DNA of 64,000 nucleotides from Lysobacter sp. M2-1 (lineage in GTDB: Bacteria; Pseudomonadota; Gammaproteobacteria; Xanthomonadales; Xanthomonadaceae). The notes under the pieces were generated by a model. It did not search any database and was not told the DNA's origin. It worked only from the letters and a program-made list of their open reading frames with translations. The stretch lies in assembly GCF_022662495.1 (NCBI RefSeq), contig NZ_JAKPBU010000001.1, forward strand, positions 1,426,001-1,490,000. Direction: 5' to 3'. A program made the translations under genes and the position numbers. Below, piece after piece: positions 48,657 through 55,526 of this stretch; the stretch's first letter is position 1, and every line of letters starts with the position of its first letter.

Positions 48657-48682
48657 GCGGCGCGGGCGAAAAGGACCGCACC

Positions 48683-49189
48683 ATGATCGACGCCACCACG
48701 CTCCAGGCCCTGCGCGACTTTCCCCGCCAACTGCAGGCGCACTACCGCGCGATTCCGGAAGGTCGCGCGCACTGGGCGCCGCGCTCCTGGGACGGCATTC
48801 CCAGCGAGCGCTTCACCGCGCACGAGCAGGTGTGGCACGTGCATGACATCGAGCTCGAGGGTTACCGGGAACGCTTCCGCCGCACCCTGCATGAGCATGC
48901 ACCGGTGCTGGTGGACATCGACAGCGAGGCGGTCACCCCGGCGCGCAACTACGCGGCGCGCGATATCGAAGCGGCGTTCGCCGGTTTCGCGCAGGCGCGC
49001 GCCGAGACGGTCGGGATGATCGCCGCCTGGGACGACGCCACGCTCGCGCGGCCGGCGGTGTTCGAAGGCTATGGCCCGACCACGCTGCGCGGTCTCGTGC
49101 ACTTCCTGTGCAGCCACGATCAACAGCATCTCGCGGGGTTGCAGTGGTTGGCTGGGAAGATCGCCGCGGAGGGCATGCAACGCGGCTAG
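48683..49189 (+). CDS. DinB-superfamily (DfsB-like) protein
   Basis: A 168-residue four-helix protein of the DinB/YfiT superfamily, which often binds a metal through three histidines. Here they appear as EQVWHVHDIELEGYRERF and CSHDQQHLAGLQWL. Members act as thiol-dependent enzymes or have unknown roles. The ATG at 48683 has a good Shine-Dalgarno (AAGGA, 7 bases upstream). An in-frame ATG at 48653 overlaps the rarD stop and is an alternative. It is probably co-transcribed with rarD. Confidence 0.85.
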   Translation: MIDATTLQALRDFPRQLQAHYRAIPEGRAHWAPRSWDGIPSERFTAHEQVWHVHDIELEGYRERFRRTLHEHAPVLVDIDSEAVTPARNYAARDIEAAFAGFAQARAETVGMIAAWDDATLARPAVFEGYGPTTLRGLVHFLCSHDQQHLAGLQWLAGKIAAEGMQRG

Positions 49190-49287: not shown

Positions 49288-51477
49288 TCAGGCTTTGCCC
49301 GGTTGGGTCGCCGCGGGTTCCAGTGGCAATTCGCGCAGGCGTTGGCCGGTCAGCGCGAAGACCGCGTTCGCCACCGCCGGCGCGATCGGCGGCACGCCGG
49401 GCTCGCCGATGCCGGAGGGTTTCTCGGTGCTCGGCACGATGTGCACCTCTACCTGCGGCATCTCGTTGAAGCGCAGCACGCGGAAGTCGTGGAAGTTCGA
49501 CTGCTGTACGCGGCCGTCCTTGAAGCTGAGCCGGCTGTGCAGCGCGGCCGCCAATCCAAAGGCGATGGAGGATTCCATTTGCGCACGGACGCCCTCCGGA
49601 TTGACCACGATGCCACAGTCTACCGCGCACACGACGCGATGCACGCGGATCGCGCGGCCGGCGACCGGGTCGTCTTCCATCGATACCTCCGCCACTTCGG
49701 CGACGTAACTGCCGGCAGTTTCGAATACCGCCACGCCGCGCGCGCGGCCCTGCGCCCGTGGCGTCTTCCAGCCGGCCTTTTCCACGGCCAGGTCGAGTAC
49801 GCCCAGGTGGCGCGGATAATCCTTCAGCAGCAAGCGTCGGTATTCGACCGGGTCCTTGCCGGCCGCGTGCGCGAGTTCGTCGATGAGGCTTTCCATCACG
49901 AACACGTTGTAGCTGGGCCCGACCGAGCGCCACACCAGCACAGGTATGCCCGTCGCGGGCGAATGCAGGTCGACGCGATGGTCCGGGATGGCCTTGAGAT
50001 AGGGCGCATCGATGACGCCACCGACCGAAAAGGCGTCGACGCCGTTCCTCACCATCATCGGTTCGAGCGGCGTGCCGGCGGCGAGCGACTGCCCGACCAG
50101 CGTGTGCTGCCAAGCGACCGGCAAGCCGCCGGCGCCGAGTCCGACATGCACCTGTTGCACGAACATCGGCCGGTAGTAGCCGCCCCGAATGTCGTCCTCG
50201 CGCGTCCACACCGTCTTGACCGGCGCACCGGCGGCCTTGGCGACATGCACGGCCTCGATGACGAAATCCGACGGCAAGCGCCGGCCGAAACCGCCGCCGA
50301 GGAACATCGTGTGGAGCCGGACCTGCTCGGGATTGAGGCCAGTGATCTTCGCGGCGGCCAGCTGGTCACCGGTCTGGGACTGGGTGCCGGTCCAGAGCTC
50401 GCAGCCATCCTTGTCGATCTTCACCGTGCAGTTGAGGGGTTCCATCGGCGCGTGTGCGAGATAGGGCACGGCGTACTCCACGTCCAGCGTCTTCGCCGCC
50501 TTCGCGAGTGCGGCCTCCACGTCGCCTGCCTGTGCCGCCACGTTGCCGGGCGTCGCCGCGAGCCTGCGGAATTCCTCGCGCAGCTGCGCAGTGTCGAGGC
50601 CGGCATTCGGGCCGAGGTTCCAATCGATCTTCAGCGCATCGCGGCCGAGTTTGGCGGCCCAGAAGTGATCGGCGACAACCGCCACGCCACTGGGCACTTG
50701 CACCACATTGCGTACGCCGGGGATGGCCTTGGCCGCGGCGTCGTCGAACGATTTCACCGTGCCGCCGAACACCGGCGAGCGCGCGACCAACGCGGTCAGC
50801 AGGCCAGGAAACTGCACGTCCATGCCGAACTGCGCGCGGCCACTGGTCTTCTCCGGCGTGTCGAGGCGTTTGGTGGGCTTGCCGATGAACTTCCAGTCCT
50901 CCGGGTCCTTGAGCTTGAGCGAGGCCGGGTCGGGCGGTGCGAGCTTGCCGGCATCGTCGGCAAGCTCGCCATAGCGAATGCGCTGCGTGCCGGCGACGAC
51001 TGTGCCGTTCTCGGTGCGCAGTCGTTCGACCGGCAGGTTCAAGCGCATGGCCGCGGCCTGCAGCAGCATCGCGCGCGCGCCGGCGCCGGCCTGGCGGTAA
51101 CGATCGAACTCCGACCAGGTGGAGCTCGAACCGAAGGTAGTCTGGCCGCCGAACGCGGAGTGCATGTAGGCCGGCGCAACCGGCGCGTGCTCGACCCTGA
51201 TCCTCGACCAGTCGGCGTCGAGTTCCTCGGCGATCAGCATCGGCAGCATGGTCCAGATGCCCTGGCCCATTTCCGAATGCGCGCTCAGCACGGTGATACT
51301 GTCGTCAGCGGCGATGCGCAGGAAAGCGTTGGGGGCGAAGGCGGCCAAGGCCTGCGCTTCCTGCGCGAGCGCAAACCGCTTCGCCACTGGGATGGCGATG
51401 CCGATGACCAGGCCGCCGCCGGCCAGCGTGGCGGTTTTGAGTAAATTGCGGCGGGACAGCTTGCTTGCGGCGTTCAC
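49288..51477 (-). CDS. Periplasmic molybdenum hydroxylase large subunit (IorB-like), copy 2
   Basis: A 729-residue xanthine-dehydrogenase-family molybdopterin-binding subunit. It starts at GTG 51477 behind a Shine-Dalgarno GGAGG. The N-terminus has a Tat signal ([19 protein letters not shown]). Cofactor motifs are GQGIWT near residue 70, the molybdopterin loop FLGGGFGRR and the catalytic glutamate in GIGEPGVPP near the C-terminus. The overall style is that of isoquinoline 1-oxidoreductase beta and membrane aldehyde dehydrogenase subunits. It is a paralogue of the subunit at 52373-54589, but slightly shorter. Its partner [2Fe-2S] subunit is presumably the one at 54600-55055. Confidence 0.93.
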   Translation of the reverse strand: MNAASKLSRRNLLKTATLAGGGLVIGIAIPVAKRFALAQEAQALAAFAPNAFLRIAADDSITVLSAHSEMGQGIWTMLPMLIAEELDADWSRIRVEHAPVAPAYMHSAFGGQTTFGSSSTWSEFDRYRQAGAGARAMLLQAAAMRLNLPVERLRTENGTVVAGTQRIRYGELADDAGKLAPPDPASLKLKDPEDWKFIGKPTKRLDTPEKTSGRAQFGMDVQFPGLLTALVARSPVFGGTVKSFDDAAAKAIPGVRNVVQVPSGVAVVADHFWAAKLGRDALKIDWNLGPNAGLDTAQLREEFRRLAATPGNVAAQAGDVEAALAKAAKTLDVEYAVPYLAHAPMEPLNCTVKIDKDGCELWTGTQSQTGDQLAAAKITGLNPEQVRLHTMFLGGGFGRRLPSDFVIEAVHVAKAAGAPVKTVWTREDDIRGGYYRPMFVQQVHVGLGAGGLPVAWQHTLVGQSLAAGTPLEPMMVRNGVDAFSVGGVIDAPYLKAIPDHRVDLHSPATGIPVLVWRSVGPSYNVFVMESLIDELAHAAGKDPVEYRRLLLKDYPRHLGVLDLAVEKAGWKTPRAQGRARGVAVFETAGSYVAEVAEVSMEDDPVAGRAIRVHRVVCAVDCGIVVNPEGVRAQMESSIAFGLAAALHSRLSFKDGRVQQSNFHDFRVLRFNEMPQVEVHIVPSTEKPSGIGEPGVPPIAPAVANAVFALTGQRLRELPLEPAATQPGKA

Positions 51478-51778
51478 GGAGGCCTCCGTCGCTGGTCTTG
51501 TCCTTCTCCCTCCGTGAGAAGGTGCCCGGAGAGCTTGCCCCGGACTCGATCCGGGGGCGGATGGGGGTTTGCCTTCGACAACGTGATTGGAGGGCGAGAC
51601 CGGTTGTTGTCGCTGCGTCAGGCATGACGGGCTTCTGCAGGGCCGGGCTTGCCTGGAACCCAGGAGCTAGCTGTCCGGGCAGACTCGGATCTACAGACAA
51701 GCTGCGGCTTGCCGGGCGTATTCAATCGATCGCGCGGCGGGCACATGAACGTGCCCGCCCTGCGCCGTTCGAAGTCAC
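51478..51778. other. 301-base gap in the Mo-hydroxylase operon, with repeat fragments
   Basis: No gene is seen. It holds a fragment CTTCTCCCTCCGTGAGAAGG and a palindrome CCCCGGACTCGATCCGGGG (51538-51556), both of which look like dispersed intergenic repeats. The gap separates the cytochrome gene from the downstream large subunit, which may lower expression of the latter. Confidence 0.5.
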
Positions 51779-52360
51779 TCAAGCGCCGGGGCAGGGGGCG
51801 CCTGCGTCCATCCAGGTCTTGAATGCGGCCACGAAGCGCTCGTGCGGCACCGGCACCGGCTTGCGCTCGCCGCCCGGCTCCCAGCCCCACAGCACCAGCT
51901 TGTCCTCGCTGACATGCTTGAACATGGCGTCGAGGTCGCGATCGCCGTTGCGCTTCTTGTCCTTGATCATCGCGCACAGCTCCGCCGCGGGCACGCCGAT
52001 CCAGGCCATCTTCTGGTCCGGCGGCGGCAGGCCCCAGTGCGGGGCGCCGGGCGGCGCGTGCGGGCCGTAGCTGGCCGGCGAATTCTTCTCGCCATGGCAG
52101 GTGCTGCACGGCAGGCCGGGCGCGCCGTGTCCGTCGGGGCCGCGCACCACGTTCATCGCATGTGGCGTCTGCGTATCGAACTGCAGCGGCGCGTCGCCGG
52201 GGATGTGGCAGTTGCTGCAGCGCGGGTGCTGGAACACCTGCTCCACGGTCTTGAACGCCTCCAGCCCCTGTGCCTGCTGCTCGGGGCTCGCGCGCTTGCA
52301 GGCAGCGGGCGCGAGGGCGAGAAGGATTGTCGCGGGAAGGATCGCGAGTAACCGGCGCAT
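51779..52360 (-). CDS. Di-haem c-type cytochrome lipoprotein
   Basis: A protein of about 193 residues between the two Mo-hydroxylase large subunits. The signal ([21 protein letters not shown]) ends in a lipobox-like PAAC. Two haem c sites are visible: CSNCH and CSTCH, about 40 residues apart. Distal ligands may come from later His or Met residues ([11 protein letters not shown]). It probably carries electrons from the molybdenum enzymes to the respiratory chain. ATG 52360 is preferred because its Shine-Dalgarno (GAGGAGG) is seven bases away; ATG 52366 is only one base from it. Confidence 0.88.
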
Positions 52361-52372
52361 GCGCATGCCTCC

Positions 52373-54589
52373 TCAGGACTTCGCCGCGGAAGTGGCGGCG
52401 GTGTCATTGGCGGCGAGCCGCAGCGGCAGCTCGCGCAGGCGCTGTCCGGTCAGCGCGAACACCGCGTTCGCAACCGCCGGCGCGATCGGCGGCGTGCCCG
52501 GTTCGCCGACGCCGCCCATCTTTTCGCTGCTCGGCACGATGTGGACCTCGACCTTCGGCATTTCCGACATGCGCAGCACCCGGTAGTCGTGGTAGTTGGA
52601 TTCCTGCACGCGGCCGTCCCTGAAGGTCAGCTTCGAGTACAGCGCCGCGCCAAGACCGAATGCGATCCCGGATTCCATCTGCGCGGCCACGGTCAGCGGG
52701 TTCACCACCGGACCGCAGTCGATCGCGCAGACCACGCGATGCACCTTGATCGCACGGCTGCCATCGCGCATGTCCTCGACCGAGACTTCCGCCGCCTGGG
52801 CGACGAAGCTGCCGAAGGACTCATGCACGGCGATGCCCTTGCCGCGGCCCTTGGCGAGTGGCGTGTCCCAGCCGAATTTTTCCGCCGCCAGGTTGAGCGC
52901 GGCCAGATGGCGCGGATGGTCCTTGAGCAGCTGGCGTCGGTATGCGAGCGGATCCTTGCCGGCGGCATGGGCGAGCTCATCGACCAGGCTCTCCATCACG
53001 AAGCCGTTGTAGCTGTGCCCGACCGAGCGCCACCACAGCACCGGGATGCCGGTCTTGGGCGAATGCAGGTCGACCCGATGCGCCGGCGTGCCCTTGACGT
53101 AGGGCGAGTCGGCGACGCCCTCGACCGAGGTGGCATCGATGCCGTTCTTCACCATCATCGGCTCGAACGGCGTGCCGGCGAGGATCGACTGTCCGACCAT
53201 CACCTGCTGCCAGGCAACCGGAACACCATCGGCGTCCAGCCCGACCTTCGCCTTCTGCACGTAGGCCGGTCGGTAGTAGCCGCCGCGCATGTCGTCCTCG
53301 CGCGACCACACCGTCTTGACCGGCACCTTGGCGGCCTTCGCCACTTCCACCGCCTCGTTGACGAAATCCGACGTCGGCGTGGCGCGCCGGCCGAAGCCGC
53401 CGCCGAGGAAGGTGGTGTGAATGAGGATCTGCTCGGGCTTCAGACCGGTGATCTTCGCGGCGACCTGCTGATCGATGGTCTGGAACTGGGTGCCGGTCCA
53501 GATCTCGCACTGGTCGGCATCGATCTTCACCGTGCAGTTCAACGGCTCCATCGTTGCGTGCGCGAGATAGGGCACGGTGTATTCGGCTTCCACCGTCTTC
53601 GCCGCCGTGGCCATTGCCGCGGCGGCGTCGCCGGCCTGCACGGCGACCGCGCCGGGCGTGCCGGCGAGCTTCGCGAACTCGGCGTGCAGGGCCTGCGTGT
53701 CGAGCGCGGCGTTCGGGCCCGGATCCCAGTCGACTTTGAGCGCGTCGCGGCCGAGCTTCGCGGCCCAGTAATGGTCGGCGATCACCGCGACGCCGCTGGG
53801 CACCTGCACCACGTCGCGCACGCCGGGCACGGCTTTCGCGGCCGTGGCGTCGAAGGATTTCACGCTGCCGCCGAACACCGGTGCGCGCGCGACCATCGCG
53901 GTCTTCAGGCCATCGAACTGCACGTCGATGCCGAAGATCGCACGGCCGCTGATCTTTTCCGGCGTGTCCAGGCGCCGGGTCGGCTTGCCGATGAGTTTCC
54001 AGGCCTTCGGGTCCTTGAGGGCCAGGGACTTCGGATCCGGCGCGGCGAGTTTGCCGGCGTCGTCGGCGAGCGCTCCGTAGCGCACGCGCTGATCGCCGGC
54101 GACGACTTCGCCGTTCTCGGTTCGGATCTCCGCCGCCGGCACGCCGAGCCGCGCGGCGGCGGCCTGCACCAGCATCGCGCGCGCCGCAGCCCCAGCCTGG
54201 CGATAGCGGTCGAACTCGCTCCAGGTCGTGGTCGAACCGCCGGTCATCTGCATGCCGAAGCCGGTATGCGCATAAGCCTGCGCGGCGGGCGCATGCTCGA
54301 CCGTGATCCTGGACCAGTCGGCGTCGAGCTCCTCGGCGATCAGCATCGGCAACGCGGTCCAGATGCCCTGGCCCATCTCGGAATGCGCCAGCAGCACGGT
54401 GATGCTGTCGTCGCCCGCGATACGCAGGAAGGCATTGGGCGCGAAAGAAGCCGTGGTGGCGGCTTGCGCCTGCTGCGCCAACGCCATGCGCGCGGCGACG
54501 GGCACCACGAAACCGATCACGAGTCCGCCGCCGGCGAGCGCGCCGGCCTTGAGGAACCCACGCCGGCTGGTTTTCTGGATGGCGTTCAT
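52373..54589 (-). CDS. Periplasmic molybdenum hydroxylase large subunit (IorB-like), copy 1
   Basis: A 738-residue molybdopterin-binding subunit ten bases after the [2Fe-2S] subunit. It has a Tat signal ([19 protein letters not shown]), [24 protein letters not shown] and the catalytic GVGEPGTPP glutamate. Substrates of this group are N-heterocycles and aldehydes. It is very similar throughout to copy 2 at 49288-51477, with shared blocks such as [38 protein letters not shown] and [12 protein letters not shown]-like stretches. The cytochrome gene starts 6-12 bases downstream, so the first three genes of the operon are tightly packed. Confidence 0.94.
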
Positions 54590-54599
54590 CGCGCGGTCC

Positions 54600-55055
54600 T
54601 CAGGCCTTGGACAGTTCGGCCGCGCGATGCACCGCCGCGCGGATACGCGGATAGGTGCCGCAGCGGCAGATGTTTCCGCTCAGCGCATGGTCGATGTCGG
54701 CATCGCTGGGGGTCGGTACCTGCGCCAGCAGCGCCACGGCCGACATGATCTGCCCGGACTGGCAGTAGCCGCACTGGACCACGTCGAGTTCGGCCCATGC
54801 CTTCTGCACCGGATGGCTGCCGTCGGCCGACAGGCCCTCGATGGTGGTGATCTTCTTGCCGGCGACTGCTTCGACCGGGGTCACGCAGCTGCGCAATGGC
54901 GCCCCGTCCACATGCACCGTACAGGCGCCGCATTGCGCGATGCCGCAACCGAACTTGGTGCCGGTCATGCCCATCAGGTCGCGCAGCACCCAGAGCAAGG
55001 GCATGTCGGCCGGGGCGTCGACCTCGTGCGTACTGCCGTTGACGATCAGTTTCAT
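54600..55055 (-). CDS. [2Fe-2S] subunit of the molybdenum hydroxylase (IorA-like)
   Basis: A 151-residue small subunit with two [2Fe-2S] clusters. The plant-type ferredoxin domain has [17 protein letters not shown] with a further cysteine in LRSC. The C-terminal helical domain has [11 protein letters not shown] and [12 protein letters not shown]. It passes electrons from the molybdenum centre to an acceptor. No signal peptide is present, so export presumably depends on the Tat signal of the large subunit. ATG 55055 has a Shine-Dalgarno GGGAG six bases upstream. It opens the four-gene operon. Confidence 0.95.
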
Positions 55056-55226
55056 GCACAACTCCCTGGCGGCGGCTGGGGGTGCTTGCAGCTTACTCCC
55101 GACAGGATGCGGACCGTAACCGGGGTTTCGTTCAAACCGGATGACGCAGCCGGCACCGTCCCTCGACCTGTGAGGGCTCGACCGCGCAGCCGCGGCGGCC
55201 CGGCCTGCGGGCAGCGGACCGCAAGC

Positions 55227-55526
55227 TCAGCGCTGCAACAGCAGCCAGCCGACCAATGCCGCGATCAGCGCGCTGGCGCACGACACCACGGCCCATGCCC
55301 GGCGTGCGCGCAAACGCGCGCGTGCGATCAGTTCGTCGCGCAGCCTGGCGCCCTGTGCCACCAAGGGCGCCGCTTCGGCTTCGGCCCGGGCGAAGTGGGC
55401 CTGCGCGCGCTGCGGTTGCGCGTGCGCGCGCAGGGCGGCGTCGTCGTGGATCTCGAGGATCCGCGCCTGCAGCTCCGCCAGCTGTCGGCCCTGTTCGGCC
55501 AGCGATGGCCTGCGCGCGCCGCTCAC
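55227..55526 (-). CDS. Small coiled-coil protein with C-terminal membrane helix
   Basis: A 99-residue ORF from GTG 55526, which overlaps the stop of the permease (GTGA). The N-terminal ~65 residues are helical and charged (SLAEQGRQLAELQARILEIHDDAALRAHAQ). A single C-terminal helix follows (WAVVSCASALIAALVGWLLLQR). No family is recognised. The overlap and operon position suggest that it belongs to the ABC export system. A non-coding reading is possible but less likely. Confidence 0.6.
   Translation of the reverse strand: MSGARRPSLAEQGRQLAELQARILEIHDDAALRAHAQPQRAQAHFARAEAEAAPLVAQGARLRDELIARARLRARRAWAVVSCASALIAALVGWLLLQR

Follow-up and report, generated by a model that had tools for sequence, protein, structure and literature searches.

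Can one electron-transfer subunit serve two catalytic subunits of a molybdenum (Mo) hydroxylase? This question is raised by a locus of Lysobacter sp. M2-1, contained in the 64,000-nucleotide stretch analysed here (positions 1,426,001 to 1,490,000 of contig NZ_JAKPBU010000001.1; hereafter the window). Four genes on its minus strand encode, in this order, a small [2Fe-2S] subunit (S), a large Mo-cofactor subunit (L1), a putative di-haem c-type cytochrome (CYT) and an extra large Mo-cofactor subunit (L2). By sequence similarity, the locus is in the IorAB and aldehyde-dehydrogenase branch of the xanthine oxidase family. S, L1 and CYT would form a standard periplasmic Mo dehydrogenase, to which L2 has been added, probably by transfer, and L2 would use S to act on a different substrate. 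We assign this reading a probability of roughly 0.55.

Two large subunits and one small subunit

S (54600..55055, minus strand, like the three genes that follow) starts with ATG, with an alternative TTG at 55061, and carries the [2Fe-2S] domains Fer2 and Fer2_2. It is followed after 10 bp by L1 (52373..54589), the usual large subunit of S-L-CYT operons, and after a further gap of 6 bp by CYT (51779..52366), a protein of 195 amino acids with the motifs CSNCH and CSTCH and a lipoprotein-like N-terminus. L2 (49288..51477) starts with GTG, with GGAGG five bases before it, and lies beyond a 301-bp spacer (51478..51778). The gene order is that of the initial annotation, which also described correctly a di-haem cytochrome of lipoprotein character and a single small subunit encoded at the locus; the only other small subunit found in the genome is of the Pao type. 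The proposal that all four genes form one operon fits as regards order and strand; the membership of L2, with 301 bp separating it from CYT, is less certain.

The two large subunits are 73% identical (534/728), and both score above the Pfam cut-offs for MoCoBD_1 and MoCoBD_2. As previously described, the GEPG loop with the catalytic Glu and the GGGFGRR motif are intact in both, and both bear twin-arginine translocation (Tat) signals, scoring 19.4 bits in L2 and 20.1 bits in L1 against the NCBIfam cut-off of 16.7 bits. No signal peptide was seen on S. MoCoBD_2 is split into two stretches in L1 and L2, marking a permuted large subunit with the front part at the N-terminus; the best stretch aligns residues 22-177 of L2 with profile positions 22-171, and residues 563-678 of L1 with profile positions 173-283. 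A domain scan of S, L1, CYT and L2 found no flavin adenine dinucleotide (FAD) subunit among them.

Active-site changes in L2

The reading frame of L2 is open across 729 codons, and its GC content at third codon positions (GC3) is 0.856, against 0.889 in L1. Differences from the nearest relative amount to 0.164, 0.139 and 0.361 at the first, second and third codon positions. The bias of divergence towards third positions, together with the open frame, indicates that L2 has been held by purifying selection.

Despite this constraint, L2 departs from its relatives at positions that are otherwise fixed. Among 220 columns invariant in 57 other large subunits (of 66 rows, the count omits seven that are distant or partial), L2 carries 14 private changes, besides a 2-residue deletion after GGGFGRR. 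L1 has none, and S and CYT have none in 75 and 63 invariant columns, respectively. The next-highest counts among the large subunits are 6, 5 and 5, and the four of the counted set with longer tip branches show 5, 3, 3 and 2 private changes. The raw count was also 14 for one other sequence (locus L076 of genome G172), where 12 are merely gaps at an end truncated in the alignment and 2 remain. Eleven of the 14 changes in L2 (G115F, F367S, A401L with the 2-residue deletion, E486G, S491A, W515V, H521P, H585F, S587T, F588A and G688S) fall in presumed active-site loops, which hold 42 of the 220 columns (p 9e-7 unpadded, 4e-5 with loops padded by 4); these p-values are optimistic, as the loop boundaries were drawn after the changes had been seen. 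The remaining three are F12L, A17T and I211T.

The changed positions differ in the depth of their conservation. All 57 close relatives and 24 of 26 distant ones have Gly at position 115, where L2 has Phe; position 588, Ala in L2, is Phe in all 57 close and 23 of 26 distant relatives; and position 12 is Phe in all 57 and in 25 of 26. The other changed positions are fixed in close relatives and variable in distant ones, which is the pattern expected of specificity positions. A401L and the accompanying deletion resemble the state in distant relatives, of which 13 of 26 have Leu, and in the aldehyde dehydrogenase of Protein Data Bank entry 8GY3. From motif alignment rather than from a structure, we take A401 to be the position of Glu802 in xanthine oxidase, and G115 to lie next to that of Ala1079. 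The xanthine oxidase pocket is lined by Glu802, Arg880, Phe914, Phe1009 and Ala1079, as described in a passage of PMC9864848. The L2 set of motifs was not seen in any of 30 further loci; in six rows, the pattern search behind this result overlooked or misplaced one motif. An AlphaFold model of L2 computed from three sequences reached a mean predicted local distance difference test (pLDDT) score of 50 and a predicted template modelling (pTM) score of 0.38.

The sharp difference between the active-site loops of L1 and L2 fits the earlier suggestion that the two large subunits have different substrates. With its pocket rebuilt in this manner, L2 would most likely act on a different substrate, probably an aldehyde or a related compound.

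Origin of L2

The initial annotation regarded L1 and L2 as close paralogues; a local duplication is not supported by the phylogeny. In a tree of 66 large subunits L2 stands apart from L1 and groups with those of genomes G008, G077 and G037 (support 86), and the approximately unbiased (AU) test rejects a sister relationship of L1 and L2 (p 0.00587). A bootstrapped tree of 30 rows recovers the grouping of L2 with the same three at 98/96, and places L1 with G031, G098, G143, G069, G090 and G340 at 80/75, within a wider group of 11 rows at 93/99. The rpoB gene joins the host to G143, G069, G207 and G254 (98/97 in the protein tree, 99/99 in the DNA tree) and puts G008, G077 and G037 in another clade (86/93 and 100/99). 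Compared with rpoB, the position of L1 broadly fits descent, and that of L2 fits transfer from a G008-like lineage. Horizontal transfer is thus the likeliest origin of L2, judging from these trees, although L2 may also stem from an old duplication lost elsewhere. Trees of the left flank and of S with CYT place the window in an unresolved fork, with S and CYT nearest to G031 by path length.

No orthologue of L2 was found in the genomes searched, the nearest relative being 76% identical. A search of genome contigs with L2 gave two distant matches of 45% and 49%, and all its relatives in plasmid records are below 60% identity.

Two other histories were considered. A native L2 joined by an invading S-L1-CYT operon is not supported, as rpoB puts the host with G143, G069, G207 and G254 and not with G008, G077 and G037. 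Gene conversion between L1 and L2 was rejected: in every segment compared, L1 leads the best of 12 other copies in closeness to L2 by 2 points at most.

Related loci

Besides the window, the S-L-CYT order was found in 75 fetched loci (44 of 47, 14 of 20 and 17 of 30 in three fetched sets), the loci lacking it in the first set being L080, with the order L-S-CYT, L086, a Pao-like cluster, and L087. Because the fetched loci derive in part from near-identical genomes (e.g. L043/L085, L064/L065 and L081/L082), they do not represent independent cases. No large subunit lacking its own S follows CYT in any of the 75, L189 being uninformative as its contig ends 0.6 kb past CYT. The four-gene order of the window, suggested earlier as something to look for elsewhere, turned up in no other locus fetched. 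Each full-length large subunit in the fetched loci adjoins an S, except L2 and a solo copy in G098 (locus L119 is cut by a contig end). Two separate large-subunit copies of more than 60% identity were found only in G000 and G098 among 395 genomes of the family and 398 of the order, two overlapping sets; since these scans scored two candidates per genome, a third copy could be missed. In G209 and G350, seemingly one large-subunit gene is present in two pieces.

The solo copy of G098 (L100, contig C1, 7532-9703) is 70% identical to L1, and no S or CYT was found within its 18-kb stretch. Its neighbours were read from sequence as kynureninase, ACMSD-like, 3-hydroxyanthranilate dioxygenase-like, RidA-like and semialdehyde dehydrogenase genes. 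It is a second orphan among the large subunits, and its substrate may be a compound of the kynurenine pathway.

Several loci show other arrangements. In L052 (G143, contig C88, 3542-10524), one complete S-L-CYT operon directly follows another, and the large subunit of the first is just 51% identical to L1. The order L-S-CYT of L080 (G032, contig C1, 7746-11072) belongs to a distant relative with a large subunit of 39% identity. Seven loci of genus g42 (L101-L104 and L192-L194) have S and L with no CYT found adjacent, and in five of the seven mocA and xdhC are codirectional with S.

Flanking and maturation genes

Many relatives share their flanks, with Ada-, Lrp-, EamA- and RarD-like genes on one side and ABC permeases, an ATPase and an HlyD-like protein on the other (names read from sequence, without a domain scan). 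The window differs from them in two respects: L2 separates CYT from a DinB-like gene, and the surroundings of S yielded no xdhC-mocA pair. The DinB-like gene (48665..49189, plus strand; name read from sequence) is convergent with L2. Among 67 loci searched, it was found only in the three of G008, G077 and G037. In the first two of these genomes, whose large subunits fall with L2 in the trees, it directly adjoins CYT. This distribution fits a G008-like donor of L2, without amounting to proof. On the other side of the locus, an interval of 467 bp (55056..55522, no strand assigned) reaches to an ABC permease gene and contains most of a 100-amino-acid open reading frame, which is present along with S, L1, CYT and L2 between the DinB-like gene and the permease.

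The xdhC-mocA pair is present in the fetched stretch of all 63 own-family loci with CYT of at least 66% identity (52 and 11). It is mostly placed divergently from S and directly upstream of it, but is 3.6 kb distant in L056, and in L052 it lies on the far side of the other operon. The pair was not seen in L196-L199 of another family, three of which have CYT above 70%, nor in the seven distant loci L078-L084. In the host genome, a single match to XdhC_CoxI and a single strong match to MocA lie side by side at the Pao-like cluster (L086), and the maturation of L1 and L2 would depend on this pair, as the operon has none linked to it. The genome encodes two Fer2_2 and three MoCoBD_1 proteins, the second small and the third large subunit being those of the Pao-like cluster.

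The cytochrome and the spacer behind it

Both CxxCH motifs are present in all 52 aligned sequences of the CYT family, that of the window included (L077, where CYT is split, was left out of this set), and three of the 52 (L075, L076 and L111) lack the lipobox Cys. At E 0.001, CYT is matched by neither Pfam nor NCBIfam; cytochromes account for most of its weak Pfam matches (E 0.057 and above), and a comparison with Protein Data Bank chains gave five weak matches only (E 0.43-0.45). This small di-haem cytochrome represents a well-conserved family with no model in either database at that threshold. In L077 (G064, contig C1, 8159-8664), the gene is read as two pieces that overlap, which points to a frameshift either in the gene itself or in the assembly.

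The initial annotation took the membrane anchor of the cytochrome as a sign of direct respiratory coupling, an argument we find weak. The residue after a lipobox Cys can direct a lipoprotein to the outer membrane (the +2 rule of Lol sorting), and the Lys that follows the presumed lipobox Cys of CYT could route it there.

In the spacer between CYT and L2, a 9-bp stem is predicted after the CYT stop codon, the fold of the whole spacer has modest stability only (z -1.66), and stretches of 24-33 bases recur at 10 other places in the genome.

Proposed working and rival explanations

The best reading of these features is that L2 would be a plug-in catalytic subunit of altered specificity: as L2 has no electron-transfer partner of its own, it may borrow the S of its neighbour. 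We infer the assembly of S with L2, its export, the path of electrons, the activity of L2 and the class of its substrate from the observed gene content and order, conservation, tree positions and sequence changes. The Mo cofactor would be inserted into L1 and L2 in the cytoplasm by the XdhC/MocA pair of the Pao-like cluster, and each large subunit would then bind one copy of S. The folded S-L pair would be exported through the Tat signal of the large subunit; with such signals on L1 and L2 and none seen on S, the small subunit should travel out as a hitchhiker bound to its partner. In the periplasm, the substrate would be oxidised at Mo, and electrons would travel by way of the [2Fe-2S] clusters in S, reaching CYT and then the respiratory chain, so that L1 and L2 would be two catalytic subunits with one electron exit, through S and then CYT.

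The main rival, which we judge unlikely but not negligible, regards L2 as an inactive or decaying leftover of recombination whose pocket changes are damage, with L1 doing all the work. Such a remnant would suit a gene for which the genomes searched hold no orthologue (nearest relative 76%), that carries G115F and F588A at very conserved positions, and that stands behind a 301-bp spacer without S, CYT or maturation genes of its own. It is harder to reconcile with the intact frame of 729 codons, the GC3 close to that of L1 and the third-position bias, with the retention of the catalytic Glu, GGGFGRR and the Tat signal, and with the concentration of changes in the active-site loops, post hoc as the loops are. 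Many Mo hydroxylases dimerise, and the adjacency of two genes 73% identical beside one S gene would be in keeping with a mixed L1-L2 complex with two S, where L2 serves as a regulatory or second site. No fetched S-L-CYT relative has at its operon a second large subunit lacking its own S, and we consider a complex of this kind very unlikely.

Even less likely, in our estimate, is that L2 partners the Pao-type small subunit or none. A second small subunit is indeed present in the genome, but it is only 40% identical to the S of the window and lies beside large and FAD-type subunits of its own (the latter read from sequence), and other full-length large subunits in the fetched loci all adjoin an S, apart from the solo copy of G098. 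The least probable alternative makes L2 a recent tandem copy of L1 at the start of its divergence. The two genes are adjacent, on the same strand and 73% identical; yet this origin is already contradicted by the AU test (p 0.006), by the 98/96 group with G008, G077 and G037 and by the lack of any segment of L2 drawn towards L1, and it would require the trees to be artefacts of faster change in L2.

Several observations also weigh against a functional, transferred L2 that borrows S. L2 is known from one genome only. It follows a 301-bp spacer in which a scan for sigma-70-like promoters recognised none, the same scan being blank before S too. The operon has no linked xdhC-mocA pair. G115F could block the cofactor or the substrate. 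The large-subunit trees conflict with rpoB elsewhere in the family (e.g. in G207, G254 and G090), so they do not record descent cleanly; the same conflicts imply that transfer of large-subunit genes may be common.

A broader view can be put forward tentatively, and we would sooner doubt it than adopt it. S and CYT might constitute a fixed electron-transfer chassis for interchangeable, horizontally acquired catalytic subunits. L2 would be one plug-in, with its own new substrate, and a second, independent case would be the solo copy of G098 in what looks like a kynurenine-type cluster. Were S to serve two catalytic subunits in the window, the specificity of a respiratory dehydrogenase could be changed by the gain of one gene and not of a whole operon. 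In that case L1 and L2, 73% identical yet different at some dozen positions that are fixed elsewhere, would make a natural pair in which to study the determinants of substrate choice within this branch.

Comparison with known systems

The best structural match of S, L1 and L2 is the aldehyde dehydrogenase 8GY3, which we take to come from an acetic acid bacterium. S matches chain 8gy3_B (E 6.4e-57), and the large chain 8gy3_C is colinear with residues 4-723 of L2 and 6-726 of L1. The entry lists one large and one small chain, and none of its chains is matched by CYT at E up to 1.

PaoABC-type aldehyde oxidoreductases, represented by one cluster in the host genome, belong to the same superfamily. 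PaoABC has a FAD subunit and bears its Tat signal on the small subunit (PaoA in Escherichia coli), whereas the operon of the window encodes no FAD subunit and has Tat signals on the large subunits. Export of the hitchhiker type is reported for E. coli PaoABC in the abstract of PMC4273604.

The IorAB-like dehydrogenases of Pseudomonas, compared by description, combine 2Fe-2S, Mo and cytochrome c subunits as the window does (passages of PMC6365646 and PMC12064950). The deoxyribose dehydrogenase of P. simiae has a Tat signal on its large subunit, as do L1 and L2 (PMC6365646, in part). The substrates of this enzyme (PS417_10890-10880) and of vanillin dehydrogenase (PP_3621-3623) were proposed from mutant fitness, according to the same part of PMC6365646, and PaoEFG is reported to oxidise hydroxymethylfurfural (HMF) in a part of PMC12064950; the deoxyribose and HMF enzymes are said there to be periplasmic. 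Relatives within this branch act on industrially interesting aldehydes of the furfural type and on aromatic ones. The Pseudomonas dehydrogenases have one large subunit each as described, and the window has two for one small subunit.

The S-L-CYT operons of the host's own family have the same S, L1 and CYT and often the same flanks, and these relatives carry xdhC-mocA near S and no L2. Among the papers listed by searches of open-licence PMC text, we found no published case of a small subunit shared by two large subunits. While the S-L-cytochrome arrangement is already known, the addition to it of a foreign-looking catalytic subunit with an apparently rebuilt pocket and no partner of its own appears to be new.

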